A DNA stretch of 64,000 nucleotides from Isoetes taiwanensis (lineage: Eukaryota > Streptophyta > Lycopodiopsida > Isoetales > Isoetaceae), in NCBI GenBank assembly GCA_021234155.1, contig JAJEKV010000011.1, forward strand, positions 18,678,677-18,742,676. The letters are read 5' to 3'. Under the pieces are notes generated by a model that searched no databases, was not told where the DNA came from, and was given only the letters and a program-made list of their open reading frames with translations. The first letter of the stretch is position 1. The number at the start of each line of letters is the position of its first letter. The translations under genes were made by a program, and so were the position numbers. Positions 7,801-31,144 of this stretch are shown one piece after another.

Positions 7801-10800
7801 GCTATTCTATTAGAAGCTCTACGCGGTGCTCCTATTATCATGGAACTTTGGATGTATCAGTTTCTAAACAGTAAAACAAACCACCTTTCTCTGCACTCTG
7901 AGTATTTTGGTTCTGCATGTCGCTGCTGATATTTATCATGGTATCAGAGCATCGACTCTGAGGACAAATTCACAGGAGAGTGTAACAGATCTGCCATGAA
8001 GATTGAAACGTTAAATCATGTGAACGCTTATTGCTGGTTCCTGAGAGTTCAAACGAAATTGTGTGAAAAGGGACTTTGGGGCATAGTAAACGGTGATGAG
8101 CAGTGGCAGGTGAGAAAGGCAAGGAAGAGGAGGTAAAGATTAAGGAAACAGAAATTGCAAGATGGGTTCAAAAGGACTGGACTGCAAAAAAAGTAGAATT
8201 TTAAGGTATTTAGATGATACATTGATGCCTCAGATTGCTGAAGCTCCATCAGCTAAGGTGGCTTGGGATGAACTTCAAAAGGCATACAGGAGAAAGCATT
8301 TTTCAAATCAAGCAAACCTGTATGCAGTTGTATTCACTACTAAGCTTAAAGATGGGATGAGCATGGAGGAGTACATTGGAATAATAAGGCAAGCCTCAAA
8401 GCAGTTGCAAGGAATGAATAAAGGGCTTGATGAAGATCTCGTTGTAGGAGCTTTGCTCCTTGGTTTGCCCAGTTCATACAATAATGTTAAGAACATTGTT
8501 GGGTCAGTGGAGACAGTTGAGTTAGAATGGGCATGTCAACAGCTCCTTTTGGAGGAGAAGAATCAAAAGGGTTTCAGGAAATCATCATCTAGGGAGGTCC
8601 AAGCTTTGCTTAGTGGCAGAGAAGAAACGAGAAAATGTTTTAATTGCAATAAAATAGGTCACTTGGCCAAAGACTGCCCTGAACCAGACAGAAGAAAGAA
8701 GAGAGGGGCGGAAAGAAAAAGAGATGATGATTTTAAGAAGAGAGGAGCAAAAGCCCATAAAGCTTCTAAGGTTGTGAAACATGAGATGTCTGATTCTTCT
8801 GTTGCTTCTGAAAATAGCTCTGAAAGTGATGATTCGTTTGTCTCATCTGGGAAGGCATTCGTTTGTATCAGAGAAGGATCATGTAGTGCAAGCAAAGATA
8901 AAAAGCATGTAAGTAAAAATTTCTTGATGATTGTACTCACCTCTTTAAGTATTCTGCTTACTGTTTTGAAGTATGGAATTATGAAGTTTGCATCCAAAGT
9001 GAGTGTGTGGTTTCAAGATTGCTATGAGGAAGCGGAATTTGAAAAGATTGCAAGATGTTTTTTGGCACAAACACCTCATGGAGTTTGGTATTTAGACTCA
9101 GGAGCAACAGATCATATGACTTCACAAGGGGATTTGTTCATTGACTATCATCCTGTCAAACAGAGCAAAGTAAAGATTGGAAAAGGAAATCTTAATGTAG
9201 CAGGTGTTGGGACAATTAAACTTGAAATTCCATGTGGAGAAATTAAGTTTAAAAGGACTCTTCATGTCCCTGAACTTGAAGCGAATTTACTGTCTATTTC
9301 TAAATTGGATGATGCTAAGTTGTTGGCAAACTTTGGATATGGGAAATGCATTGTAAAGGACAGATCAGGGAACATGCTTGCCCTTGGAGATAGAGATGGA
9401 GGCTTATACAGGTTGAGTTGGTCTCAAAAGGCTGCCCTACGTGCTAGCACATTGGATCAAAGCCAGTTGTGGCATGAGAGATTAGGCCATCCTAATTACC
9501 CATTGATGAAAGAGATGTATAAGCATAAATTGGTAGATGGTTTACCAAAGATTGAGGCTCCTGATAAGTTGTGTGAAGGGTGCATGTTGGGGAAAATGCA
9601 CAGGAAGCGGTTTCCCAAAGGAGGAGCACATCGAGCAGAAAAGTGCCTTCAAATTGTGCACATGGATGTATGGGGAAAAGCTAAATTTGCATCAATTGGA
9701 GGCCACTGGTATTTCCTTTTGATTGTTGATGATTTCAGCAGGAAACTATGGGTTTATTTCCTTAAGCGTAAGTCTGAAGTATTTGGATATTTTGTCCAAT
9801 GGAAAGCCTTGGTTGAAAACCAAACTGATTTGAAGCTTAAGCAAATCCGTACTGATCAGGGAGGAGAATTTGTGAATGGGAAGTTTGATGCCTTATGTAA
9901 AGAACATGGAATCAAACATGAAAGTCAGTTGCACATGAGCATCAACAAAACGGAGTTGTTGAGCGAAAGAACAGGACAATTTTGGAATGTGCCAGGGCCA
10001 TGCTATTTGGAAATTATATTGATCCTTCTTTTTGGGGAGAAGCTGTGCACACTGCATGCTATTTGTTGAACAGGTTGCCAACTAAAGCTACTGCCAATGT
10101 TGTGCCAGAGCATTTATGGACAGGAAGAAAACCCGAGATTGTGGATATGAAGGTTTTTGGGTGTAATGCATTTGCTCATGCTAAACGTAATAAATTGTCT
10201 AACAAAGCTTTGCCATGCATGTTTGTTGGGTATTCTGAAGAAATAAAAGGGTATAGGCTCTATTTCCCTTCTACTAGAAAGGTGATTATAAGAAGAAGCG
10301 TGACCTTTGATGAAAACAATTTTAATTTTGGTAAAGGGATTGGGCCAAAGGTCTATGATCTGAGTCATGATTCTGGATCAGATAGTGATTCTGATTCTTG
10401 TGATGAGCATGTTGAAGCACATGATGTTGCGGATGAAGAATTTGAAATCCCATCAGAACCTGAAGACAGCGATGGTGAGTTGGATGATTTGAGTCCTAGT
10501 GACAATCTTGCTCAGGATGGATTGAGGCGATCAGCAAGAACCCGGCGCATAACTCATCGCATGCAGGAGTATCTTAATTCTAAACGAGGTAAGACCTCTG
10601 GGTATATTGCTTTTAATAACAATGTGTTACCAGATGAACCTAAAGAGTATGCAATGGCTATGAATAGTAGCAACAAAGATGCTTAGAAGGCAGCCACGCA
10701 GGAGGAATATTAGTCATTGCTTGACAAATACACTTGGGAATTGACAGAGTTACCAAAAGGGAAAAGAGCAGTGAATTCTAAGTGGATTTATAAGATAAAG

Positions 10801-12759
10801 TATAATGATCAAAATGAAATCAGCAAGTACAAAGCTCGCCTTGTAGCTTTGGGATGCTCGCAAACAAAAGGGGTAGATTATCATGAAACGTTTGCACCGG
10901 TTGCAAGATTAAGCTCTGTTCGAACAGTCTTGGCTGTGGCAGCAGCTTTGAACTTAGACCTACAGCAAATGGACGTTAAAACAGCATTCCTTCATGGTAA
11001 ATTGGACGAGGAAGTTTATCTTAAGCAAGCACCAGGGTTCGTTGTTCCAGACAAAGATCATCTTGTTTACAAATTGAAGAAAGCAATTTACGGTTTGAAG
11101 CAGTCGCCTCGACAATGGTACCATACAATTCATAAGTTTCTGACAAGACAAGGGTTCACTCGAAGTCAGGCAGATTGGAACGTATATAGTAAGAGGTATC
11201 ATGATTCGCTTCTTCTCATTGTTTTATATGTAGATGATCTTATTCTGGCAAGCGATAGTTCTGACATGATGCAAGCTACTAAGGATGCATTGAGTAAAAG
11301 GTTTAGTATGACAGATTTGGGCCCTCTGCATTATTTTCTTGGCATCCAAGTTGTTCGTGATCAGCACCATCAAACCATTAAGATTCATCAAAAGAAGTCT
11401 ATTTTGAACTTGTTGCATGCCTGTAATATGCACAGTAGTAAGGGAGTAGTTACTCCTGCTACTTATGCTATGCCATCTCTTGCAGCTTCTCATAAGTGTG
11501 ATGATTTAGGGGGATTGTCATTTCGAAGTATTGTTGGCTCTCTTATGCATTTCATGGTTTGTACTAGGCCTGATATTGCTCAGGCCACTATTACCTTGAG
11601 TCAATACTTGGATAATCCTGCACCTCAGCATTGGTTAGCTCTTAAGAGACTTCTTCGCTACTTGCAAAGTACGCCCAGCATGGGAATCTGCTATTATCAT
11701 AAGGTCAGTTCTCCACTTGTGCTTCAAGGTTTTGCAGATGCTGATTATGCAGGAGACAAAAGTGACCGAAAATCTAGAACTGGCTATTGTTTTCTCCTGC
11801 AAGGGGGAGTGATAGACTGGTGCAGTAGAAACCAGAAGTCCACTGCAGCTTCCACATGTGAATCTGAGTATATGGCTCTGTGCAGTGCTGCAAAAGAGTG
11901 CATTTGGTTATGGAGGTTGCTTGGAGAAATATATGTGCCACAACATGAAGCTACAGTACTCTATAATGATAATACTGCTGCCCTTTCCCTTGTGAAGAAC
12001 CCAACGAACTTTACTAATGCCAAACACATTGAGGTTCAATTCCATTTCACCAGGGAAAAGGTAAGTGAAGGTCACATTGCTGTGCAACATTTGAGAACTG
12101 ACAAAATGGTTGCAGATGTATTCACTAAAGCTTTGGGCAAGAAGCAATTCATGAAATGCATTGCAGCTATTGGCATGTTACAGGTTTAAAATTTTGTGCA
12201 AGGAATGTTGCAGGAGTGCAAAGAAGTCTGAAGCATAAATTTGGTTTGGAGCCTTATTGAAGTTGAAGAAGTTGCAGCTCTGAAGGCATTCTGATTTTGA
12301 TTGGAAGATATTTCCAATCTATTGACGGAAGTTCCTTTTGTTCTAGTTAGTTGTTTTTCATCCTATTCATGTGAAAAGTAAAAATTAGATAGTGATTTAA
12401 TTTTGCTGAAACTCTGATAGATCAGGTATATTTTGAGGGGGAATGTTGACAATGGTATAATGTTAGCAAAATATACCTTACGTAGATACATGCCAGAATT
12501 AGCAAGGTGTGCTATTCTATTAGGAGCTCCACGCGGTGCTCCTATTATCATGGAACTTTGGATGTATCAGTTTCTAATCAGTAAAACAAACCACCTTTCT
12601 CTGCACTCTGAGTATTTTGGTTCTGCATGTCGCTGCTGATATTTATCATGTACCAAACACTTTTGAAGACATCTTCTTACCGGAGGAGAAGATTGTTTCC
12701 GGATAGCTAGCTACCAGTATCGGACTCGATTCTAAACGTAAATGATACTTAGTGCACAT
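4859..12759 (-). CDS. At4g18490-like protein, 12 exons, copia element in intron 1
   Basis: Exons by splice sites and phase: 12681-12759, about 7534-7659, 7248-7457, 6573-7186, 6474-6522, 6309-6395, 5958-6194, 5709-5892, 5523-5620, 5326-5455, 5140-5259 and 4859-5065. All phases agree except at the end of exon 2. The product, about 700 aa, resembles the uncharacterised plant protein At4g18490. It has an N-terminal [13 protein letters not shown] block, repeats like [19 protein letters not shown] with Lys-Ser-Pro stretches, a long acidic low-complexity middle, and a C-terminal coiled segment ([20 protein letters not shown] then [10 protein letters not shown]). The start at 12759 is the only ATG that opens exon 1, and it splices in frame (SS/DDD). 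The exon 2 donor gives the wrong phase by one base, so a frameshift or sequence error is possible. A 50-nt intron (6523-6572) is needed to avoid a stop. The function of the family is unknown. Confidence 0.72.
7734..7938 (+). repeat. 5' LTR of the copia element
   Basis: 205 bp, TG...CA ends, 201 of 205 positions identical to the right LTR. The four differences fall near 7772, 7813, 7820 and 7868. Confidence 0.93.
7939..7951 (+). promoter_or_regulatory. Primer binding site, initiator tRNA-Met type
   Basis: TGGTATCAGAGCA follows the CA end of the LTR directly. This is the standard copia primer site complementary to the 3' end of initiator tRNA-Met. Confidence 0.93.
7996..12189 (+). pseudogene. 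Copia gag-pol polyprotein, frameshifted
   Basis: The frame starts at ATG 7996 ([15 protein letters not shown]) and is broken near 8125, 8195 and 9935, with stops at 10684 and 10711. Gag carries a zinc knuckle [14 protein letters not shown] near 8635. The aspartic protease shows [12 protein letters not shown] near 9090. The pre-integrase has LWHERLGHP and [15 protein letters not shown], and the integrase has HMDVWGKA and [11 protein letters not shown] contains [19 protein letters not shown] and the catalytic [10 protein letters not shown] near 11224. RNase H shows [19 protein letters not shown] and [10 protein letters not shown] and ends at 12189. The homopolymer at 8190 is a likely site of one shift. 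The two stops replace what is usually W and a polar residue in this family. The element cannot make its own proteins as read. Confidence 0.9.
12444..12648 (+). repeat. 3' LTR of the copia element
   Basis: 205-bp partner of the left LTR, preceded by the purine tract GAGGGGGAA. The flank reads T then GTACC, matching GTACC before the left LTR with one extra T. Confidence 0.93.
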
Positions 12760-16019: not shown

Positions 16020-17395
16020 GAATCGAACCCAAACAAGTCCAGTCAGGCTGTATATGCTCGTCCAAAAGTAAAATCAAGCCAATGAACAACCACCATTTAA
16101 GCCCTTGGGTTACCATTACAGGTACCAATACAATCAGAGCAAAGGCAGCTACAACAACCAAGCTCACCTGCCAAGTTTACATCATGTCATTAAAATCATT
16201 AAAAATTGATCCACCTAGACTATTGCTTTCTCTTGAGGACGATATTTGCTCACATCAAAATGCCAAAAATACCATTGACTTATAAAACAATCCACCACAA
16301 TGGTTCCATTGCTTAAAGGCCCTGATCTGTCATACATATGAGGTCTGAATGGTTGCCATGCAATGTCCACTGCCAGCCTGAAACAAGCATTGAATATAGT
16401 AAGCATTCATACATGAAGCAAAACAAGGTAAAAAAACAATACTTGTTTGTATGAGCATGATGAGCATTATGTTTGAGTCTCCATAATTCAAAAGGGTAGA
16501 TTAAAGGTGCCATAACAATTGTCCAAGGATCTTATTCCGTGGAACTATGTTCAATTGCATCCCTAGTTGTTGCCCTTTTCTTAAACATGTTTGAGCCAAA
16601 ATGGCTGTCACTTTTGAAATTGTAGTGCCTCTTTCACATACCCCACTGCAAAAGCGTAAACTGAAATACTCTTCGCATTTGTGATAATCAAAATCAATAG
16701 AAGCAATTATTATCTATCAGGGCGGGTCCAGCAAGTTTATTAGCATAGGATTACGCGATAAAGAGTCTCAAAACTGCAGAATAATCACCTGGACACATAA
16801 CCTGTGCAGCATTTCTAAGATGACTACTTACCAAAATCAGAAAAAATGCAAAAGAATGGTTAGCCAAACTGATACTGAAACAGGGATAATAGATCCACAT
16901 AATGTAAGAGAGACCTTTCAGAATATACAAATTACACCAATCAAAATGCCACATACTATGTCTAGGATACATAACCTCAATCAAGTCCTAACTCCGTCAC
17001 TAAGCACTCACAAGTTTGGCTTTTTTAAACTGAGTTGTGTCCACGGTCATGACCAATAACAAACAATCATCTCAATGCAGTTCTCAGGAACAAATAGACA
17101 AATGGATAAAGATACCAAGGAGCAACTACAAGAGCCACATATCCTGCCGCCACTATGGAGAAAGTAACTACCACAGTCTTCCATGCCTTTAGATCATCAA
17201 TCTCACCTATTATATAACAATGATAATGAGACACACATCAATAAAAATCTATCTACAGAAGCAATAGATTGTGGGACCAGATTCATGAAGTTTACGTCTT
17301 TCAACAGTTTCAATTTCATTAGAAGCTCTCACAAAATTCTTTAGGCAGTGTCTTTACAAGATCACTTATTGCTAACCCTTCAGGTATCTATAAAA
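16020..17395 (-). pseudogene. Plastid omega-6 fatty acid desaturase (FAD6-type) pseudogene
   Basis: Exon-like blocks on the minus strand follow the order of plastid FAD6. The first (17395-17316) has IPEGLAISDLVKTLPKEF. The next (17210-17030) has GEIDDLKAWKTVVVTFS, a hydrophobic run APWYLYPFVYLF and the first histidine box as GHDRGH. The third (16515-16445) has [15 protein letters not shown] then HHAHTN, the second box. The fourth (16380-16215) has DIAWQPF and QWYFWHFDVSKYRP, and a last block (16165-16025) has ALIVLVPVMVTQGLKWW. In the family this enzyme adds a second double bond to plastid glycerolipid acyl chains. Here a TGA precedes box 1, box 1 has Arg for Cys, and frames shift, so it is dead. 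The N-terminal exons are missing: the 5' side meets the ParB-methyltransferase locus at an intron acceptor (TTTTATAG) near 17395. Confidence 0.75.
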
Positions 17396-19391
17396 TGATT
17401 GGATGATATAAGATCTCATGGCAATTACACCTATCTCAGCAGCTATCCTAGCAACATGTTCCTGGCCCCTTTCTATAACCTCTGCTGTGTCCATCTCCGT
17501 ATAGCCTGTTACATCTGGGATGTCTACAGACATGGCCTGTGCAAGGAGTTGGATATGTAGATCCAGTCCTTCCGTCTCAGTATCCATAGCGCTGCCTTCG
17601 ACCGATGCGCCACTCTGCACAGCACAGGCGATATCGGGTGCATGGAAGAGCTTCTTTTTCTTGGCTACAACCTGATGCTCTTGTGTACCACTTGGCTCAC
17701 CCTCTTGATCCGCAGGGTCCACGTCCATGCCTACGTATTCGAAATTCGACCCGCCTGTCAAGAAAGGCATGTAGGCATCAAATTTTTTGTTTAAAGCCCC
17801 CAATTTTTGAAACACGGGCTCTAGCGCAATAATACCTTTCTCAGTAGACTCCAGAAGTCTTTTCGTTTCCTGCATCCTTTCCTCATAGCTTTTCTCATCC
17901 ATTTGATCCAAGATTTCATCAATCTTAGATATATCTGTTTTCTGGGTAATATTTAAATTGATCTTGTCAGGACCATTTATAGTGTCTGCCTTCTCCTCTT
18001 CAACTGTCTCCCCAGTGCCCTGGCAAACCATTTTTTCAAGCTTATCCAAGAAAGCCCTCAGAAATCGGCATACTTTACCCTGGCTTTCGAAAGCAATACT
18101 TTTCTTTCCCTGCATAAAGGCGACACGGGAAGCAGTACCTGCTGAGAAGAAATCAAGGACACAACCATCCTTGGGCACAAGCTTGTCAACAATGTAGTAA
18201 GCATATGATGTCTTCAACTGGCACTTCATCACGTGATCACCTTCCATTTCGACAAACTTGTATCTGGGTTTACCCGTGAAGTAAGTCTGCCATTTTTTTT
18301 TCATTTTCTCATCAGTTTCTTCGTTACCAGTGACAGGCATTGGTGGCAAGGGGGTGTTTTTTGGTGCTGTGCTCACCGGTGTCAAACGAAGCTCCAACTC
18401 TGGCAATATCGAGGTTACCCTGGAGTCGCTTCTGTTAATGCACATATGGGTGATGTAATACTGATATTGTGATATTCCTTCACCCTTTTCTTGTTCACCC
18501 ATCCTTGCTCGTCATATGTGCCTACAGAAATATGGGACCCGCCTTGAATCTGCTTCTGGCTGTAGAAGCAATCTGGCAAGTTCAATGACCGCATCAAAAT
18601 CACAAGGTGATAAATATTAGCAGTTGTCATGCTGGATATTCTTGTAAAGAGTTCCATGTACTTTTTGCAAGTCCATAATGTAGAGAATCCCCTAATGTCA
18701 ATGAACACCAAAGTTGCATTCTCAGATATTGGAGTGGACGTAGGAATCCCTTCCTTTGTCACAGCATGAACAACATTTTTCTTTTCTTTGATTTTGATAG
18801 CCTCTTCAGGTTTCAAAATCGATCTAATGGGTTCTAAAAATGCAACGGGCAAATTACCCACGACATGATCTTTATTGTAATTGGCGTTCACGTACTCTGT
18901 ATCCGAATCAGATATATCAAGAATCCACTGTTCTGTGAAAGCAGGAAACTCAGACAGCAATTCTTCGAAGAAAGTGTATTCTTTCTGAAGCAACGTGGAA
19001 GCGTATGACAAACTCTCTTTGCGCATGAAGGTCAAGCTTCTAATGTCAATGGCGCGCTGCTTGCAATCAAACCTGCCATGATATCCGGCTTGCACTTTAA
19101 GGTATGTTTTTCCTTCCAAAATCTCATCAAGAAGCTGAGAAACCTCTGCATTAGACATGCCTCTAAGGTATCTTAACCAGGTTTTGTTGAAGAAGTCCTT
19201 CGTGGGCTTATCAGGAAAATCTCCATGTTCATCACAGAGTTTTTTGTTCACCTATTTGTTGGCCACTTCCATTAATTTTCTGAAGACCCGCTCCTCCATA
19301 AAAATAAATTGTTTTTCGTCTTTTAGCTCCTTCACCTTCAATGTTGTGGTAGCTATCTCGTGGAAGTCCTACAAAATAAATGGTCAGGAAA

Positions 19392-19405
19392 ATCGCGGCC
19401 GCGAT
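19392..19405. repeat. Palindrome ATCGCGGCCGCGAT inside an intron
   Basis: A perfect 14-bp palindrome followed by GTTGACGAGC, lying in the intron (about 19378-19432) of the ParB-methyltransferase pseudogene. It belongs to the motif family clustered at 21.0-22.9 kb. Confidence 0.8.
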
Positions 19406-21024
19406 GTTGACGAGCTAAGATAAGAAAAATACCTTCCATGCTGAGGTTGTGGCAGTACCAATGGGACCTTGAGGAGGACATCCATACGCCTTATGTTGAT
19501 GCCGTAGCTGTTGAAGCTTCTCTATCAATGGCTCTCAGTATACAGTGTTAGCAATGACTTCATTGCACTGAATGCTCAATTCAATATATTCTCTATTTAT
19601 CAAATTTCCATTAAGCACTCTGGTTCTTCTCCTGGCGTAGGCTTTAGCAAACTCAAGCCGCTGTTCCAGCTCTCCAACAACACCGCAAAGCAATTGAGCT
19701 GCACATATACTATGGTTACCAGAAATTATCCAAAATTTCTTGCCCTTCAAATCAGCTTCTGTGTTCCACGTGATCTTTTTCCTGAAATAATGTACACTTA
19801 TAAGTTAGGAAGCCACAAAACAAAAATGATGGACAATAACAATCACCTGGTAATCGGGTCGAAGGGGACAACGTCGGCCGGTGTGAGCACCTCCGTAGCT
19901 CTTCACGAGTGTTTGCACATGGTCGTTTGAACGCATTCGATGCGTGATATTAGCAGGAGCTGGCTCGCAATAAAAAATAGAGACCTTCATAAACCAGTTC
20001 ACACCAAGCGGATAAAACCGCTTAAACTGTTCAAGTTTCTGTGCAGTTTGTTCAGCCAACTTGCGTTCTTCCTCGGGATTGAATTTAAGCTCCGTCGGCA
20101 GTTCAGAAACAACGGGCCATGCTAAGGACTTCGAGGATGAAATACCTGTCACGGAAGGGGGCGTGCGAGAAGACGAAGGCTCTCCACTGTCAGAAGTATT
20201 CAGTTTGTGGAGGTTGATCGTGAACTTCGAAATCTTGTTGGGGACCGTAGTATCTTTCGTCACAACAGGGGGAGCACAAATAGCCAAAGGCTGAGTAGGA
20301 TTAATAATAGCAGAAGGATGGACAGTGGAAACAGGCTCCACAGACATGGCTCTAGTCTGGGTAGAGTCCTCTGCTAAAGAAACAGGCTTTACATTCTTTT
20401 TCTTCGCCTGAGCTCTTAACCAGTTTGTGTCCATTACGGAGGGCATCTTCTCATCACGTTTAGCTTTCAATGCAATGCTGGGTGGTTTCTTATCTGCTAG
20501 CAAACCTTTTCTGCATGTCGAGAAACCAGACAATATATCCCTATTTCCAGTTATTCCTGACAGAGACAGAGATTCATACGACTGCAGCTCCCAGCCATAT
20601 CCTTTTGCACTAGTGGGAACATTCTTTCTTGTGGCCGGCTTGTTTAACTTGCTAGCTGTCATAAGTGAGGGATCATAGTTTGTCCATTTCAGGACGTACT
20701 CAAGGAACTGCAAATTTTGTGTATCCTCCACGCTGCATATAATGGCGTCTTGGACATTGTTTTTTGTTCCTTCCCACATAGCAATGACAATTCCTATCTG
20801 TTGTATGTCCTCAGCTTTTTTGCCAGTCTTGAGGAACAAGCAAAGGTCTTTTCTGCGGTCCCTTTTGTCTGTGGAATTGCTTGTGCAATTTCAATGCACC
20901 ACTTCCTTTCATTAGAAGATGTGATGATCTTCGTAGGCTCAACGTCAGGACCACGAAACAAATCCAGAGCTGCAAGCAAGAGAAGTGTAGTATTAATCCT
21001 AACCGCACAGTACTTATTCTCCCG

Positions 21025-21293
21025 TGAACTCAACAAGATCGCGGCCGCGATCTTCTTGAGTGCTCAGCAAGAAGCACCAGATTATCTTGTTGAGTGCTCC
21101 ACCAGATCGCGGGCGCGATCCTGCCGAGCACTACACAGGATCGTGGTGGCGCGATCATGCGGAGCACTCAGCAGGATCGCGGCCGCGATCCTGTTGAGTT
21201 CCATACTTCTGTATGACTACTTGAGAACGAAAAGATGAACCATAAAACAAAACATGCATTATCGAAATAAATCGCGGTCGCGATCTTCTTGAG
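21025..21293. repeat. Cluster of GATCGCG..CGCGATC palindromes
   Basis: Five copies lie at 21037-21052, 21105-21120, 21139-21156, 21175-21190 and 21271-21284. Most have a flank like CTTCTTGAG or CCTGTTGAG on one side and its inverse on the other, so the first and fourth extend to about 32-bp near-palindromes. They are in the first intron and the upstream region of the ParB-methyltransferase gene. Repeated palindromes near transposon genes are often binding sites for element proteins; that role is inferred here. Confidence 0.8.
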
Positions 21294-21878
21294 ATGAGGG
21301 GGCAAGAACTTACCTTCTCTGATATGCGCTTTAGGTGCCATGGATCGCGGGCGCCGGAAGAAATCAGAAAGCGTGTTTTCTAGGTCTGCGATCGAAGGCG
21401 CTAGAGTGAGCTGAAGGCGCGGAAATCATCGATGGCGCTAGTCTCCTCTTCAAAAGAAATCGCGAATTCTGAAAATAAATAGTGATCTGGCGGCGGTCTT
21501 AATTTAATATCACACGTGCGAGATCTGACGCGCCATAAATGCCTGCCATTATTGCAGCCGGAATTAATAATTACACCCCATTAATGCAACCGCCCTTAAT
21601 TATGGAGACGCAACAAATTTGTTATAATTGAGGCGTGTTCCGGACAAGAGGTACTTTTTGACGTGGACCTCTGGATTCAAAATCTGTACGTTGAGGGAGA
21701 GATATAACCACGCCCCCGTACCAATACCCCGCGTAATAAATGGCCCACGGAATAAATCATTACAAGGTTCAGGAGGACGAGTTAAGGACGGAAAAAGACA
21801 TCTGCGTTTGAATTTTGCAACTGAATTTCGCGCTCGTTCTTGTTGGCGGGGATTCCATTTTGAAATCGAGCAAGGTGT

Positions 21879-21980
21879 TCTTGAAGGCGCTCGATCTCCT
21901 CGTCTGGGCGCCCTATCCGTTCTTGAAGGCGCTCGATCTGTTCTTGAAGGCGCTAGGTCTCTTCTTGAAGGCGCTCGAGT
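21879..21980 (+). repeat. Four short tandem units TTCTTGAAGGCGCTCGATCT
   Basis: The 20-bp word occurs at 21879, 21919, 21940 and 21961 with small changes; the last three are head to tail at 21-bp spacing. It lies in the divergent intergenic region. The core GGCGCTCGATC recalls the nearby palindrome family but is not itself a palindrome. Confidence 0.75.
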
Positions 21981-22474
21981 ATCTTAAGCTACCAGGGTAC
22001 AAAATCTGTTTTGTTGTTTATGTGTGGGTTATAATAGTGTTTTCACAATCCACCCATACAATTTACTGTATTAGCACCATCTCTTTTTTGGTAAGCAAGC
22101 CCTGAATCAATTGTTTTTTTCTCTGACTAATTGAGTAATGAAGGGCTTAGACAGCTCGGTTTCAGTGTAAGAATGGCACATTCGATGTCTTTAGAATGAG
22201 GCTAGAAGATGATCCTAATAATGGGCATAAATACGCCTTATCGAGAGCACATCGCATACCAAAAGATGTTTATTGGAGATCACTCTAACATAACTATGGA
22301 TCTGCTAACAGGTTGACAAATCAGGACCGATCTCCATTCTAATTAACAGTAAAGCAGAGATTCGTTGTGGAAATAACAGTTGCAATTAATATTTACGTTA
22401 ACATTTAATTTGCGAGAGTTACTCAAATATCTATTTGTTGCTCAGTTGCACCAGCTCGGATCTCTGCCTAAAAT

Positions 22475-22852
22475 AATCGCGACTGCGTTCCTCCTGAGAT
22501 ATCGACGTATAACGCGACGCGAGGTACACGTTCTACATATGCTCACATCGAAATAATCGCTACTGCGATCTTCTGGAGGTAAATCCCCGAGGAAAGTGTT
22601 TTTTAAATGGTCAGAAGGAAAATAGTGAGAGCTGAAGAAGGTTTGTTACATTAGAAGAAGATTCTAGTTAGATTTGAAGGATTCTAGATATTTACCAAAG
22701 TGGTCCAGAGGATCGCCTTCGCGATCTTGTTGACGTATTATGTCGTCCCTTCAGGCTGAACTCATAAAATAATACTCGCTGGGCCCTTGAATAATTTGCG
22801 TTATTTTCTTACCAATGTGGTCCAGAGGATCGCCTTCGCGATGTTGACGAGC
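22475..22852. repeat. Second cluster of the palindrome family
   Basis: Degenerate copies lie at 22476-22497, 22556-22578, 22711-22734 and 22828-22852, with cores such as GATCGCCTTCGCGATC and the same TTGTTGA or TCTGGAG tails. The last two sit in a repeated 33-bp block (TACCAAAGTGGTCCAGAG before the core). They run up to and into the start of the rightward transposase-like pseudogene. Confidence 0.75.
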
Positions 22853-25800
22853 AATGTTGACCTTTTTTGTAGGATGGAATCTCTACAGTCGTTATACTTG
22901 TTGGGGAAGAAAGTGGCCGAAGGCAGAGTGCATAACTTCATGCACCACCACAACGTTCCTGTGCCAGACGATGTGATAGTAGTTTCTGTTGTAGTTGTCT
23001 TTGATGGGCAGATACCACTTCCATTTCCCGAACCGGAATTGAACAAGCTAGGGGAAGCTATCGGTAGCTTCGTTCTTTGGTCCAAAAGCGACCTTAAGAA
23101 TGAAATCCAAGCAACACCCGATGTTAGCACACCACCTGGTCAGATCAAACGGATAAATTGGCAAGTCCGAGAAAATGGTAGAAAACAGTAAACCAAGTGA
23201 AGTGCATGGGATTTGCAGAGATAAACTAGTGGAGAAGACATGCGCGTTACTGCACGAGTGCTGCAACGTGCCTTATGCTTCAGGCGTCATCGTCTTCGCA
23301 GATCCAAACGATGCCGTGTCTGACATGAAGTTGGGTGAAGAATGGATAGGGGTTTCTATTATGAATTTGTTGCCCATGCCCGAAAATATTTCTATGCGCT
23401 GTCAGGCTTGTGCAGAAATGCCACAGGTGCATGACTTGTTGAGATGGCCAATAGCATTGGTTCTAGTAGACAGTATTCCAGTTTCAAGTCTAGTTTTGGC
23501 CGTGAAGGAGACAGAGGTCGAGAAAGAACCTTATGCCATCAGGCCGGAGGCTGGAATACAAAAAAAAAGACAGTACCACATGGTAAACAGGAGGGCGAGA
23601 CCACGCTCCACCCCAAACAAATGTGAAAGGAAAACCACAGCTGACGCTATCTTGAAGTTCAGGTCCTCGCTGTGCTGCTTGAAGAGATGTTGTGCTAATT
23701 TCACATTTAAAGAGGTATCCTCCACGAGGACCTTTTACTGGAACATGAAAAGCTCGAACGCATAAACTTTTTGGCGCATAAACATGCTAGATCTTTGTTC
23801 AGAGAATGGAAGTGTGACAAAGCTAATGTTGAACAACAAGCAAGTTTGTGTGAAGGCATGGCATAGTGCTTACGGAATACCCGTTTCTACATTTTACAAA
23901 TGGAGGAAGCTATTTTTGAGCGGCCATAGGATTGCGGAGCACGGAAACTTCGGATCCAAGAAGACAAGATCTCATACACTGGCCGGAAGTGTTGTGCTAT
24001 CTATGTACATAGATGAAAATGCTGAAACTATGCCATACCGCTCAAAGGTTACGAGTGGGGGCACTAGAGAAAATGTGAAGAGATTACCTTCCATCTTGAC
24101 TAAAAAGGACATACATCAAGAGGTAGATATTACTGTGCACGATATAAAACATGTTTCTCCGTCGTCCTTCTTGTCAACGTGGAAGGAGAACCACTCGGAG
24201 GTAGCAATCGCTAAAAGGATAGCATTTTCTAAGTGTAATACCTGTATTGTGATAAAGGAGAAGCTTGCCAAGACTAGAGATCCAAGAGAAAGAAGAGAGC
24301 TTGCCGTAGAAAGGAAATCTCACATGACAGCTCAACTTTCCTGTAGGAGTCTCTACTGGTCATGGAGAGCTTTGTCTCATCGATCTCCTGAACATGCCTT
24401 AACCATTATACATGATAAGATGGATCAGAATAAGACCATGGTTCCTCGTCTAGAGAAGCTAGCAAAGTCTGTATGGAGGGGTGAACGATTGAAGGTGAGT
24501 GTTACTGGTGCCACGGGCATGGTGTAGGTGCCTTGGGCCACTTCTCGCTGGACCTCTGGCCTGATGATTCGAATTTTCATGTGGGATCTTTAAATCATAC
24601 CTTGAAAACACTAGAGAATCAATCTGAGGACAATTGGGGACATTTGAGAAATACAGATCATCCTGGAGGCTGCTGGGTTGGAGCAATTTTGAACACGGAT
24701 GCCTTTAGGACAAAAATGGTGAATGGCACTAGAAATGATTTTATGCCTCTTCTCAAGGGCCCTATGGTACCGAAGAAGTTGCCTAGGAGGCTTTACTTGC
24801 AGCTAGACAATTGCTCAGGTCAAAACAAGAACAGGTATCTTTTCTCTTACTTGTCATACTTGGTCTGGTTGGGTGTCTTCGATCAGGTGCAACTGGGATT
24901 CATGATGGTTGGACACACCCACGATGACATAGATGCCCTCTTTGGAAACTACTCTACTCTATTGAGAAGATCAGATGCATTGACTATTCCAGAGCTTATG
25001 CAACTTTTCAGGCAGTGTAGTTCAAAGTCTCCTTCACCCTACCTTGTGTCAGAGGTTCCCAACTGGAAAGAATTCGTGAAAGGTTTTATCCTTGATAAGA
25101 AGGACCGTTTATGTGGTCATTTGGAACCTCTACTCTTCAAGTTCTGCATGAAGGATGGATGGCCACTAATGTTCTACGAGAATGAGGCCAGGGCATAGGG
25201 AGTGGCTACCTGAAAAGGGAATCAAAATGTGGAAGGAGGATGCCCAAGGTTTACCTATGATTCCGAGAGGGTCACCTAAGGTCGTGCAGCCATATGAGAG
25301 CTTGAAAGATATAGGTGCATTGAGAGCTTCTATTGCCAAGTACATGATGCACTGGGCAGCTATTTCTAGAGCCGGCGATAACTCATGGTCTAACACATAT
25401 ATGAATGAAGTTATTGACTACTGATCCACCTTGTTGCGAGTGCTTGGGGACGTTCGGCCCGGTAGAGCTGTCATTCAGGATTTCTGGCCCAGCACGAGAC
25501 AAATTGCATTGGAAGAACCCGATAATGTGTTGGTGGATGAGCACATTGGTGCATCTCATTATGTCGGGCCTTTCTCTAGTAGACCCAAGAACCCAGTTGA
25601 AACATTCGACCCCTAGCAAGATGTCAAGAAAGGAATGCTCTTGCTGATCAGGCCACATGATAACTCCTCGGCGTGGATGGCCTTTGCCGAAGAGGACCCA
25701 GTAGAGGACCCTAATCTCCCTCACTACGAAGAGGTGTTTGTCTCTTGGTTTGAGCCTGTTGCCAGAAAGGGTACCTCATATGCAATGCAGTATAGGGATT

Positions 25801-25983
25801 GCTGGAGCAAGAATTGGAGACCCAATCCTAATGATCCGCCACGCTACCAACATTTGAAAACAATAGATTACGGTTGGGCGGTAGAGACAAAGCCATTGTT
25901 AGTGGTGATCCCCAATAGTGTGGGGGCTCAGTTGCAAGAATTAGTGTCTAAAGAAGCTAACGAGGATGATGAGAACTCTTGAG
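22787..25983 (+). pseudogene. DUF8039 / DUF7869-type DDE transposase-like pseudogene
   Basis: The N-terminus (22877 on) reads LLGKKVAEGRVHNFMHHHNV and LPFPEPELNKLGEAIGSFV, the pattern of DUF8039 of plant transposon proteins. Next comes a cysteine cluster (CCLKRCCANFTFKEV), then an HTH-like part FYKWRKLFLSGHRIAEHGNF and a CNTC pair. The catalytic region (24533-25195) has FSLDLWPDDSNFHVGSLNHT, LQLDNCSGQNKNRYLFSYL and FMMVGHTHDDIDALFG. Its acidic residues fit a DDE/D RNase H-like integrase of the DUF7869 group. The C-terminal part, ending at 25983, has VFVSWFEPVARKG, similar to the small beta domains after such transposases. Frames shift near 23190, 23735, 23830, 24510 and 25185, and TGA and TAG interrupt the last frame. 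It is divergent from the ParB-methyltransferase pseudogene. Confidence 0.65.
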
Positions 25984-26120
25984 GTATGCAATGTTCTTTT
26001 ACATGATTACTATAGCATATATAATATGCAAGGTACAATAGACTATTTATTATTCATTACGTCTTGCATTTTTCATCTTAACACAAGAGCTCTTACACTA
26101 TACAATGTTGAACAGGTGAT

Positions 26121-26363
26121 TCATTCATCATCAACAGCTGTAGTAGTGATCCCTGATATCTCATAGCTATTGCGCTCAGGAAGCCAAATCAGATGGATCA
26201 TAACACGAATTGGCTCAGGGCAACGAATCTCAGCGCCCAAAGCTTTTCTTCGCAGGTAGGGATCAAGAAGAATACCCCTGTCTAGGCAACCGACAAGATC
26301 AGAGTGGCTCATTGAGCACTTGATCGCCTCGATGTGGTGAACTAATGAAGGCGAAAAATCCAT
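26121..26363 (-). CDS. Small 80-aa protein, paralogue A
   Basis: An intact 80-codon frame with no known family. It shares length and about a third of its residues with the next gene: HI...KC, DL..C, LDP.L, KA.G, RV..HL.WLP and the C-terminal VDDE all match. A TATA-like box (CACTATAAAAG) lies about 40 bp before the ATG, and about 250 bp upstream is shared with paralogue B. The protein is probably cytosolic, since it has no signal peptide or membrane segment. It follows the transposase pseudogene by 140 bp on the opposite strand and may be accessory cargo of the same element; that link is inferred from position. Confidence 0.6.
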   Translation of the reverse strand: MDFSPSLVHHIEAIKCSMSHSDLVGCLDRGILLDPYLRRKALGAEIRCPEPIRVMIHLIWLPERNSYEISGITTTAVDDE

Positions 26364-26399
26364 GGGAGATGAATGAACTTTAGCCCCGAAGTGAGAAGC

Positions 26400-26411
26400 T
26401 TTTATAGTGAA
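26400..26411 (-). promoter_or_regulatory. TATA-like box of paralogue A
   Basis: CACTATAAAAGC on the minus strand, about 40 bp upstream of the ATG. The same element at the same distance precedes paralogue B. Confidence 0.5.
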
Positions 26412-26853
26412 GTAGAATTATTGAGGTGAATTATTGGGGTAGACTTTACCGCCATTATTGCGCGTGTATAATACTATTCTATACATACAAGTATAATACA
26501 TCTTTCGTATGGATATGTGTATGCTTTTAAAACATGTTTTGTGGATTTTAATATGGTAGAAGTTTTTGTGCTTGAGTAATTCAGGTGTGATTGAAAATAG
26601 GGACTGCTTGCAGATATAGTGGAAGTCGAAGAGCACACCCTTACACTACACTCAGGTATGATACATCAAACAATATTCATTGTGCTATTACATCCTTACA
26701 TAGTTTATAGGTGCTCATACCATTATTATATCATAAACAGATACAGTAGTCATCACTGATAACATTGATTAAGCTTATTACATCCTTACATACTATTAGA
26801 AGTGCTCATATATCATTATCATATTCCTGGCAGATACACTAGTCTTCGACGAT

Positions 26854-27096
26854 TCACTCATCATCGACACCTGCAAGGATGATGCCATTCAGCTCAAAGA
26901 TCTCCTGATCAGGAAGCCAATAAAGGTGGACCACAACACGAGTGAGCTTCCTGCAAGCACTCGCAGGACCATCTGCTTTGGACTGGAGCCATGGATCAAG
27001 ATTAACACCATTTCTATAGCATTCACACAGATCGTTGTAGCTCAAGTAGCACTTGAAGGATCGGATGTGCTCCGGACGAGGAGGCAAGGAAGCCAT
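26854..27096 (-). CDS. Small 80-aa protein, paralogue B
   Basis: Second intact 80-codon frame in tandem with paralogue A. It starts MASLPPRPEHIRSFKC, has VVVHLYWLPDQEIFELNGI in the conserved C-terminal half, and ends VDDE. The pair arose by duplication of a unit of about 730 bp: upstream sequence to about 27330 matches that of A to about 26620, including words such as GAATTATTGG.GTAGA. Equal length, intact frames and matched promoters suggest both were kept by selection after copying. I do not recognise the family. Confidence 0.6.
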   Translation of the reverse strand: MASLPPRPEHIRSFKCYLSYNDLCECYRNGVNLDPWLQSKADGPASACRKLTRVVVHLYWLPDQEIFELNGIILAGVDDE

Positions 27097-27121
27097 GCGG
27101 GATGAATGAGCGGATGGAGCT

Positions 27122-27134
27122 GTTTTTATAGTGA
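27122..27134 (-). promoter_or_regulatory. TATA-like box of paralogue B
   Basis: CACTATAAAAAC on the minus strand about 30 bp upstream of the ATG, matching the box of paralogue A in position and context. Confidence 0.5.
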
Positions 27135-27330
27135 ATTAAAATTATTGATGTGAATTATTGGTGTAGATTGTAGCGTCATTATTGGGCTTGTACAAGTATC
27201 ATGTACACGTACAAGTATAACACATAATTTGTATGTATATGTGTATGTTAATAACCTCATGTATCTTGGGCTCGAGAACTAGGTGAAAATATTCGTGCTT
27301 GAGCAAATTAGGTGTGCTTAAAATTCTCAA

Positions 27331-27980
27331 AATAGCGTTATTTTCTCCAATTAATGAAATCATGCTTTTGAAGGTTACACCACATTTATCAATGTCTTAC
27401 AACATTGCTAGACAAGATGTTTTTGAATTCAACATACTTTGGGATAAACAGATGCAACATCTATGTCTTCACATCCAATTGATGAGCATTGAAAGATCAT
27501 GCCAAACTCTTTTGTAGCTTTATATGACCAAAATATCATGTCTTCTGTTCACGGTGCAACTTTATATTGTTGATTGAAATGTGCATTATTGGCATTACAT
27601 TCTTATTGAAACTTTGCCTTTGGAAGCATGTTGTATGTTGCATTATCACATTACATCTGTACAAATGTTTCTTTAATGCTTCACAAAATGTAGGAAGCGC
27701 ATTGCCCTTTCAATATTGCAAACATTGGTCATGTACATATGGCCTATTTTCAATGGAATATCCACTCTAAACTTAAACCAAATAGAAGATCCTCAACTAG
27801 AAGATTCTTGCTAAGCCCTCCAATGTCAATGGTTGCAGCAAAAATGCCAAATTGTTGTAGATGAAATACATGTAGTGAGAATGCATATTTTGTGCTCCAT
27901 TGTTCCTCCTACAAACCTTAAATGCATATTTTCATGTGCGAATAATTATTTACCAATAAGCAACCACTTTCTAAATTGTT
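27331..27980. other. AT-rich non-coding DNA
   Basis: No frame with a recognisable product, no clear splice-site pattern and no repeat that I can support. Confidence 0.4.
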
Positions 27981-28014
27981 ACTAGGCACGGCAACGCCGG
28001 GCACCATAACTAGT
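27981..28014 (+). mobile_element. Possible Helitron 3' end
   Basis: GGCACGGCAACGCCGGGCAC contains a short hairpin (CGGC-AAC-GCCG) and is followed about ten bases later by CTAG and then a T. Plant Helitrons end in a GC-rich hairpin near a CTRR terminus and insert between A and T. The hairpin is weak and I could not find a TC-type 5' end, so the element's extent is unknown. Confidence 0.35.
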
Positions 28015-30700
28015 CATCATAAGTTCGTAACATCATTGATTTAGGAAAATCATTGCTAGTTCATATCATGCTTAATTCCATAAATTCTACAATCGTACTA
28101 TAGTTTTTTGGAATCATCAATAGTTTAGAAGATGTGTTTTATGCATATATTGATTTCGCAAAAGCAACAGCGGTTAATATCATATTTTTTGTACTAATTT
28201 GAAATTTTACACTGGTATCTATAAATCATCATTGATTTGTATGATTGTTTTTAAGTGTACGTTTAACTGCCAGATCTCCCATAGAATACATGTCGGGTTG
28301 AATAGGGGCGATGGGCTCGACCAGAAATAGAGGTGACGGGCAGAGTGACTGGCCACATCAAGTTTAGGGTAGTCATGAGGTATATCTGGGTAGATTTTGG
28401 CATATATCCTAAATATCTCACATTCCCACGTAAGGGAGGGCTTTGTTAGATTTAAAAGCTTTGAGCCCGGGATTTGAACCCAAAGTCAACCTCTTACAAT
28501 CTTCTCCCTTTTAATCCACAAAGAAATGTGCAAAGATAGGCCTCATAGGGACAAAATCTCCATGCTATTTTTGTCTACTATTCTGCAACAGCTTTTCTTA
28601 TGCACATGACTGAACTATGCTTTGTTTCTATGCATATGGTTGACCAGATATAACTCCTGACTAAGCCCTCTATTTTTTTCTGTTTAGTAGCAAGGCCAAT
28701 CAATAACTCTTTGACCTTTTACAGCTGCAGGCCACTGGATTTTCACAGCCTTTAAGTTTTGAGCCTTCTTTCCGTCTATCTCTTGCGGATCTGTTCCGGT
28801 AGCTTATGTAACATTCTTGTGGATGCTCAATAGTTTAACTGGTTCTCTAAACTTCCTAAGAATGCTTTCATTTTGCAATTTGTCACGACGATTTTTTGAG
28901 CTTTTAGTAATATGCTAACTTGAAAATTTCGAATGCTCGGCTATTAAGCATGCTGCTTTGTGTTTATCCTAGCTAATGGGTGTATCTTTTTACGTCTTCA
29001 AGTTTGAGTCCTCCACGAGTACACGCAATTGTGATGTACATTGAAGGACCAAATACGCAACGTTGGATATTAAGAATTACACTTGGAATACATATATGTC
29101 AAAGCATTAAGAAGTAAATGTCCTTGGCTTATATATGCCAAAGCATTAAAAACAAATTGTTAACACTGAACATGAATCATATCACATTTGAGTGCCTTTC
29201 TATGATCGTCATCTTCTTCACCCACATTGATTCTAACCTACAAACTATATATCCAATCAAACCTAGGCCAGTTCTAAGAATAAAACATTAACATTTATGC
29301 TATGTTTATGCAAAAACATGGTCATGTCATAAACGCTATGGCATCTTATCAATCCAACCTTACCTCCACCATAGAGAATAAGATACAATTTCAATACAAG
29401 GGTTCGACCTTATATCAAGGCCTTTAATAATATTAATAATTTTTAATCCCTTATAACCATATTGGGGGAAGGGGTGAAACTTGAATCCAAATTATCCCCT
29501 TGTTTTCCCCCCTTTTTGTCTGACAATGACGCAGACGAAGACAAGGTTGTTTTGAAGCTTTAGAGCTATGGCGCTCTGTTTGCACCAGAGGCTTGGCGAT
29601 CTTCGCAATAAAGTTTAGAAGCCCTGGCACCTTGCTTGAGGCAAGAGCAGTGATTTTCCACGATCTTCTGGCTAATCTTCCAGGCGACATCTTCCAAAAA
29701 AAATTATTGGCGATGGCGGAGCTCGAGGGCATGTTTTGTCCGCTTTGCTTTACCAGCTATGGCGATGGTGGAGCTCCATGGCGATGATGGATCCGGAGCA
29801 CTAAGGGAGCTCGGGCCTTCACATCTGTATTTTCTAGACCCTGTTTTTTTCCCTTTGCTTAACCCCCCGTGCTTAATCCATATTTTGCATCCTAGGTATG
29901 ATGATCTATGGCGTTTGGCTGAACTAAGGTAACACGAAAAAAAAACATAGATGCCATGGTCTTGTCTTTTTCCTGTATGCCTTCGCATATTAAAATAATT
30001 TCACGTTTAGGGCTGCCTTGACACTGTTCACCAGGGCAACACGGAGAAATATGATCCCTTGTCCAGATTGATGTCTGGCTTTTTGATAATGAAGTGATCT
30101 TGGATATTTAGTTATAGTATCCACCTGATAAACATGTCAACTATGTTTTTTAATGGCTGTCTCTACTCATAAAGTTTTTCCATATTTCTTGTTCAAGCTC
30201 AAATATGTTTGATTGAAACCATCGAGTCTTAAGAAATTGTGTGCTTGTTAAGTTTGTTTGTGAGACAAAGCCAGAAATTCTGAATCTGAACTGGAGCACT
30301 AAATGCAAGGCTAAGCAAGGAGTCTCACTCTTTGCTATTTATTTGCAGCAACTCAAGAAAACTTCTGTGGCAGTATGAGCTGTTTCAGTGCCTATTAAAG
30401 AGTCTTATACTTCAGTCCTTGGCTTTACACAACTTGCAGAACCTGTACGTAATCTGTGAACATTGTTCTCTTTGTTTTATCAAAAACCCAGATGGAGTAA
30501 TTTCTGCCCCTCTGGCAAAGTAATGTACATTGCTATATTTGAGGAATATAACTTACAAGGCTTTGAAGATTTCCACATCTTTGAGTTTTCTTATTGTTTG
30601 AGTTTTGTTTCTTGTCTAAACTTTCCTTGACTCGATATTTGCTAGCACTTTCTTAGAATGATTGGCTTCTACAGACTTCTTCTAAATTAAGAATTCGAAT
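28015..30700. other. Long stretch without a supported gene
   Basis: AT-rich DNA. Near 29520-29800 the phrases GCTATGGCG and GATGGCGGAGCTC recur, and short frames there have no recognisable product. Near 29090-29150 a 40-bp phrase with CAAAGCATTAA occurs twice. No RNA gene is evident. Confidence 0.4.
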
Positions 30701-30701
30701 C

Positions 30702-30857
30702 AGATGGGTAGCTAAACAGCTCGAAATATTCGCCGCCGCGATCTTCACTATCACTTTGTTTTCCTTTCATCCATATGTAGACCTTAACGGACTTGTGATC
30801 TTATATCCATGGGCTAGCTAAGCAGCTTCAATTCTTCGCCGTCGCGATCCTGCTGAG
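30702..30857. repeat. Third cluster of the palindrome family, in a 46-bp repeat
   Basis: Two direct copies of about 46 bp (30702-30748 and 30809-30857) each contain GGGTAGCTA or GGCTAGCTA, AGC.GCTT, and a core TTCGCCGNCGCGATC followed by TTCAC or CTGCTGAG. The core and tail match the motifs at 21.0-22.9 kb, about 8 kb away. They may mark the right side of the same element. Confidence 0.65.
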
Positions 30858-31144
30858 TATTCTTAATCTTTCTTTTGGACTGCTCTTACTCTGAAAGGAG
30901 CTTGGGATAGCCTTATACAGGTCGAAATCGGATACATTGCTGGTTGTGACCGAAAATCAGCGAAAAAAACGGCAACTTTTACTCTGTTGCAACCACTTAC
31001 GGTGTTTTATAAGCAACCAAGAACCTATTTCATGCTAAACGAGAATTCCAAAATTCTCTAATTAATTAATTCGTGCTTTCAAATGCAAATGTGAAATGTT
31101 AAGTGCGGTTAACTTCCATGTTGATTGCAATAAGAGGGGGTATT

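Follow-up and report, generated by a model that had tools for sequence, protein, structure and literature searches.

The closest described counterpart of the gene treated here resides in Sola1-1_Ec32, a DNA transposon of Ectocarpus. According to the part of the report available to us (PMC12477816), this element of 21.5 kb carries a gene combining ParB and methyltransferase domains on the strand opposite to its transposase gene, the methyltransferase being predicted to produce N4-methylcytosine (4mC) or N6-methyladenine (6mA), and such transposon-encoded ParB-methyltransferases of algae have been put forward as accessory proteins of a possibly new class. A target site duplication of 4 bp is stated for Sola2 in the section consulted of PMC3627910. 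A further system to be considered is VANC of the Arabidopsis VANDAL transposons which, as given in the accessible sections of PMC5735166 and PMC10398659, removes silencing and binds motifs, often arranged in tandem, that lie within the introns of its own element and in its non-coding sequence between genes and at the termini. Here, we analyse a ParB-methylase-like gene on the minus strand of a 64,000-nucleotide stretch of the Isoetes taiwanensis genome (contig JAJEKV010000011.1; the whole stretch is hereafter designated “the window”) which turns out to be a regular constituent of a high-copy DNA transposon and lies opposite a transposase gene with a DUF7869 domain.

The Isoetes element has in common with Sola1-1_Ec32, as far as the latter is described in the above-mentioned part of its report, that it is a DNA transposon whose transposase gene has, on the other strand, a companion gene for about 1100 amino acids with ParB-like and N4/N6 methyltransferase-like parts. 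It differs in being only 10.2-10.6 kb long, in residing in a land plant, in missing the catalytic motif of the methylase and in bearing arrays of the palindrome ATCGCNNNNGCGAT. A preceding sequence-only reading of the window had considered a gene of this kind little-described, which the published Ectocarpus precedent (PMC12477816) contradicts. What is new is that it occurs in a land plant, that the catalytic motif has been lost, that palindromes are arrayed in the element and that the same genome holds a second family with catalytic-looking motifs. No land-plant case was found in the literature searched, where most subscription journals were not covered, nor is PF25273 (DUF7869) named in that literature. 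The kind is thus extended to a land plant, at high copy number, with a branch which lacks the catalytic motif yet is under selection and for which a specific candidate target site can be named. In common with VANC, as described in the cited sections, the Isoetes gene is the second one of a DNA transposon in a plant and is accompanied by repeated motifs in introns, upstream and in terminal non-coding regions; VANC, however, has other domains (DUF1985, DUF287) and recognises other motifs. The resemblance concerns layout, and no homology is claimed. Compared with bacterial and phage ParB proteins and N4/N6 methylases (PF02195, PF01555), profile similarity is detectable, while the Isoetes protein shows GNHS in place of GxxR and DxRxF in place of DPPY and is encoded by a spliced eukaryotic gene.

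The genome searched comprises 1,658,258,908 bases in 1110 contigs. Within it, the open frame at window positions 18415-19251 has 3794 candidate matches, the best 139 of which were scored and display 59-100% identity, many of them within open frames that exceed the query in length. Because of these 139 matches, which go far beyond chance, the locus is one copy of a large family and not a lone fusion. To define the element, the window was compared with copies A (C1028) and B (C1105), which belong to the same subfamily, and with the diverged copy C (C1067). It constitutes one continuous unit with sharp borders and terminal inverted repeats which start with AAGCAYGATTT. In all nine copies readable at both ends (A, B, C, the window copy and five copies fetched as short stretches; copy D was omitted as its right end lies beyond the fetched stretch) a perfect 4-bp target site duplication is recognised by eye, and all nine duplications differ (GATA, CTTA, AATT, TTGA, ATAT, TAGT, ATTA, ATCA and AATA). 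The length of the duplication agrees with a putative Sola-type transposon. The end sequences are abundant in the genome, the left one being represented by the best 40 of 702 candidates and the right one by the best 40 of 1012. An inversion of about 13 kb (17427-30477), one breakpoint of which lies inside the element, splits the window copy; its TTGA duplications still agree across the inversion.

A whole transposase frame of 1019 amino acids is present in copy D (DUF7869 E-value 2.2e-41). Among the best 139 of 3794 gene matches, at least 33 have a scored DUF7869 match within a distance of 15 kb, as against 0.38 expected by chance, whereby the DUF7869 matches are the best 150 of 11,843 and the number 33 is therefore a lower bound. 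In 33 out of 33 linked pairs both genes are arranged head to head. This count led us to reject an accidental neighbourhood. Hence, the adjacency noted in the sequence-only reading holds true, but instead of loose cargo the gene is a regular gene of the element. The ratio of nonsynonymous to synonymous substitution rates (dN/dS) of the transposase was determined for five pairs, two of which are saturated; it amounts to 0.19 for C and D, to 0.16 for A and the window copy, calculated over only 47 codons, and to 0.60 for A and B, which either speaks against uniform constraint or is caused by broken frames.

The ParB-methylase-like gene starts with an ATG at position 21341 and is composed of four exons with splice-type junctions. 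Copy C has the identical exon plan with introns of 342, 64 and 65 bases and a spliced protein of 1163 amino acids, which bears out the earlier view of a spliced, intron-bearing gene beside a transposase gene. Of the bounds proposed earlier for the locus (17372..21341), the upper one coincides with the start codon while 17372 is no biological border, homology to copies A and B ending at 17427. The peptides on which that view was founded are all present in minus-strand frames, namely GNHSICAAQLL in 19535-19804, LVFIDIRGFSTLW in 18415-19251 and VLDFFSAGTASRVAF...GKKSIAFE in 17372-18511. Likewise, the window copy is indeed a pseudogene, its reading frame being interrupted by frameshifts as well as by an in-frame stop near 19252; its exon 4 contains a stop and a frameshift and is truncated at 17427 by the inversion. 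Last-exon frames without a stop, reaching up to 657 amino acids, are present in other copies of the genome. The presence of introns and of hundreds of candidate copies spread across many contigs led us to reject an origin of the gene from bacterial contamination.

The suggested ParB-like context is corroborated by the comparison of profiles. Alignment of three spliced copies by hhalign with 13 phage ParB proteins, which were taken without a Pfam check, leads to a probability of 88 and an E-value of 2.9e-6, whereas crossed and reversed controls remain at probabilities of 0.1-0.2 and E-values of 0.34-0.74. The unannotated record L066 does not enter the ParB profile. The signature reads GNHS in the window copy and in copies B, C and D; it deviates from the usual GxxR as the arginine is missing. 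A genome-wide search with PF02195 resulted in a sole match, below threshold and within a bacterial-like stretch elsewhere.

For the methylase-like part, hhalign aligns a profile of 12 copies with 14 viral N4/N6 methylases (nine verified with Pfam, the other five by record annotation) over 49 columns at motif I with a probability of 16 and an E-value of 0.0016, compared to 0.34-0.74 for the controls. By means of a fixed pattern the motif I region, reading VLDFFSAGTASR or VIDFFSAGTASR, is found in 26 of the 32 copies fetched, among which that of the window is counted once. The catalytic motif IV ([DNS]PP[YFW] or [DN]LP[YFW]) is present in none of the 31 readable ones, in accordance with the earlier statement that the DPPY-like catalytic site has been replaced. 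At this position, the aspartate is kept in 30 of 31 copies and the arginine of D-x-R in all 31. A scan of IMG/VR with the exon 4 alignment matched 19 stretches, none of which is a relative; tblastn searches of phage sequences with the exon 4 part and the ParB region gave weak matches only (best E-values 0.9 and 1), and a comparison with PHROGs yielded nothing useful.

Exon 4 is under purifying selection. Of nine pairs for which dN/dS was calculated two are saturated, while the remaining ones display values of 0.41, 0.33, 0.28, 0.14, 0.12, 0.12 and 0.14; the ratio amounts to 0.12-0.14 in three pairs with a dS of 0.43-0.63 and to 0.12-0.41 in four closer pairs. Because the motif IV position is conserved yet non-catalytic and exon 4 is constrained, these data argue for what would be a working protein other than an ordinary methylase, and a putative DNA-binding, non-enzymatic role fits them.

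A search of the genome with PF01555, of whose 1443 candidates the best 150 were scored and the rows listed exceed the cut-off of this family, points to a further group of genes which we examined at four loci, L040 (C976), L041 (C1034), L042 (C1066) and L073 (C941). Both L040 and L042 show DLPYG as motif IV and LDAFSGSGTT as motif I, L041 has a variant of motif I, and the ParB signature GGNHS is found in L040 and L073. The head-to-head neighbour of L073 exhibits weak similarity to the copy D transposase (blastp E-values 1e-5 over 44 residues and 0.001 over 130), and Pfam does not call DUF7869 in it. The second family matches the window family at motif I (blastp E-value 3e-4), and hhalign places DLPYG on DMRSF, albeit weakly (E-value 0.067). 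The permuted order of motif IV-like followed by motif I-like parts claimed in the sequence-only reading is supported; the methylase similarity, weaker than that of the ParB part, covers the motif I region, the motif IV half being aligned only weakly and with this same-genome relative. Judged by its motifs, the genome holds a high-copy ParB-methylase family of catalytic-looking appearance alongside the degenerate one, by which the question of writing DNA marks versus binding DNA becomes directly testable. The palindrome is absent from L040, L041, L042 and L072. At L041 we also observed a SET-domain frame (L041:2495-3448; PF00856 E-value 2e-6), about 0.8 kb away from the PF01555 match.

The palindrome ATCGCNNNNGCGAT occurs ten times in element copy A, five times each in B and C, six times in D and eight times in the window copy; it does not occur in 75.9 kb outside the elements, and shuffled sequences contain 0-0.01 on average and one at most. 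If one mismatch is allowed the window contains 12 palindromes, 11 of which are located in parts of the element including its displaced left end, with 0.69 being expected. In the window (8) and in copy C (5), where introns were mapped, all exact sites lie outside exons, namely in intron 1, in intron 3 and in the intergenic region, in copy C also in the left terminal region. Intron 1 of copy A harbours a 34-bp tandem array of the palindrome. Genome-wide, the exact 16-mer GATCGCGGCCGCGATC is found 362 times and its reversed control not once; of the first 50 sites listed, 19 are within 10 kb of a known element match, fewer than 0.3 being expected. The full palindrome of 14-16 bases is kept across subfamilies despite diverged surroundings, including the sites in intron 3 and in the terminal region.

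With confidence and doubt evenly balanced, we propose that the gene serves a high-copy two-ended DNA transposon as its accessory gene and that its product, derived from a methylase but no longer methylating, would bind ATCGCNNNNGCGAT and control the element. The protein would combine a ParB-like region with a permuted N4/N6 methylase-like region which, having lost the catalytic motif IV, may serve DNA binding instead of methylation. Within its own element it would recognise the copies of the palindrome that lie in introns, in the promoter region shared by both genes and in the left terminal region, contacting them via the ParB-like and the former methylase parts. As a consequence, the promoters might be kept free of host silencing in a VANC-like manner, or transposition might be regulated or assembled. 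We infer both the binding of the palindromes and its effect. The more specific idea that, in a family of land-plant transposons, a self-modifying ParB-methyltransferase has become a catalytically dead, sequence-specific binder which occupies palindrome arrays in non-coding parts of the element and shields it from silencing, and would thus represent an anti-silencing system of bacterial ParB-methylase origin, independent of VANC and existing beside catalytic-looking relatives, is tentative and, in our estimation, rather unlikely.

Several observations weigh against the proposal of a palindrome-binding, methylase-derived protein. The other 31 of the 50 sites mentioned are not near a scored element match, the element matches being best-scored lists. 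PF02195 does not reach its Pfam cut-off, there being no match in the spliced region or in the whole copy C protein, and PF01555, searched with the single sequence of the window, attains an E-value of 0.067 and 13.6 bits, which is under its cut-off of 26.7 bits. In copy C, Pfam suggests other weak names instead (Cas9_PI, E-value 0.005). The hhalign E-values are pairwise and originate from shallow query alignments (effective number of sequences, Neff, of 1.4 for the methylase query), unlike those of database searches. When the alignments of exon 4 and of the ParB region were used for a profile search of the PDB, no ParB or methylase match emerged, and an AlphaFold2 model of exon 4 built from 13 copies is, with a predicted local distance difference test (pLDDT) score of 41, too poor to decide on the fold and supports no claim. 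The best PDB match, a three-domain cytochrome (E-value 2e-4) aligned over a short helical stretch, was regarded as chance. Finally, the CGCG within the palindrome could be read by a host factor.

The last of these points leads to the alternative which survives best, although we deem it unlikely: the palindromes would be read by a regulator of the host, for example one of the CGCG-box (CAMTA-type) kind, while the accessory protein does another job, for instance aiding the transposase. The CGCG core resembles a plant regulatory box, and palindromes are present between the two genes. Yet the full palindrome is conserved across diverged subfamilies in intron 3 and the terminal region too, and its absence from the four second-family loci suggests a family-specific partner. 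Persisting N4C or N6A methylase activity of the protein, which would modify its own element by means of an unusual motif IV, is improbable. While retention of the motif I region in 26 of 32 fetched copies would be in line with this, and the authors of the Ectocarpus study (PMC12477816) suggest for proteins of this type that they bind and modify the transposon encoding them, the catalytic motif IV is lost from all 31 readable copies, whereas the second family keeps DLPYG. Quite improbable, too, is a methylase-like signal arising by chance, the second half of the protein being an unrelated domain in which motif I arose by accident. Support is confined to the motif I half, with a probability of 16 and Pfam below cut-off; the order of motifs IV and I after the ParB-like part, however, matches that of the second family, and the available part of PMC12477816 describes the same domain pair in the Ectocarpus element. 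That the gene is cargo captured from the host or from bacteria and plays no part in the transposon, conceivable in so far as both domains are of a bacterial kind, is very improbable, since all 33 linked pairs agree in its place and orientation and since it is retained between subfamilies at 57% protein identity and low dN/dS.

The positions of the features of the element are compiled in Table 1. The two small frames placed after the transposase gene lie inside the element as well.

Table 1. Features of the transposon in the window, listed along the ParB-methylase-like gene, the intergenic region, the transposase side and the element ends.
Feature	Position	Strand	Remarks
Exon 1 (MAPKAHIRE-)	21314..21341	minus	ATG and GT donor by position; matching exon in copy C
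Intron 1	20970..21313	minus	four palindromes at 21038, 21106, 21176 and 21271, in part a tandem array
Exon 2	19847..20969	minus	first half of ParB-like region encoded at its 3' end; frameshifted in window copy
Exon 3	19434..19781	minus	ParB-like signature IISGNHSICAAQLL; frame breaks near exon end in window copy
Intron 3	19369..19433	minus	palindrome at 19392
Exon 4	17427..19368	minus	codes for the middle domain, the positions of motif IV (FIDIRGFS) and of motif I (VLDFFSAGTASR) and the C-terminal region
Intergenic palindromes	22476..22842		exact at 22556, 22712 and 22829; one mismatch at 22476
Transposase gene, DUF7869 domain	22874..25982	plus	head to head with ParB-methylase-like gene; PF25273 E-value 1.1e-40; frameshifts and stops in window copy
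Small open frame, 80 amino acids	26121..26363	minus	conserved in copies A, B and C; no Pfam match
Second small open frame, 80 amino acids, resembling the first	26854..27096	minus	conserved in copies A and C; no Pfam match
Right terminal inverted repeat	27343..27367	minus	read inward AAGCATGATTTCATTAATTGGAGAA
Target site duplication TTGA, right side	27368..27371	plus	
Left element end and last codons of the gene	30478..31078	minus	inverted relative to other copies; one-mismatch palindromes at 30729 and 30835
Target site duplication TTGA, left side	31079..31082	minus	across the inversion
Candidate target palindrome sequence			ATCGCGGCCGCGAT

Elsewhere in the window, plus-strand frames at 8144-12189 are presumably those of a Ty1/copia-like retrotransposon, and a frame at 3069-3647 resembles a pentatricopeptide-repeat protein. 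Apart from the window, a GC-rich stretch at about 237 kb of contig C1105 (L043) contains bacterial-looking frames of the ParA/ParB type within a plant contig, which may reflect contamination or transfer.

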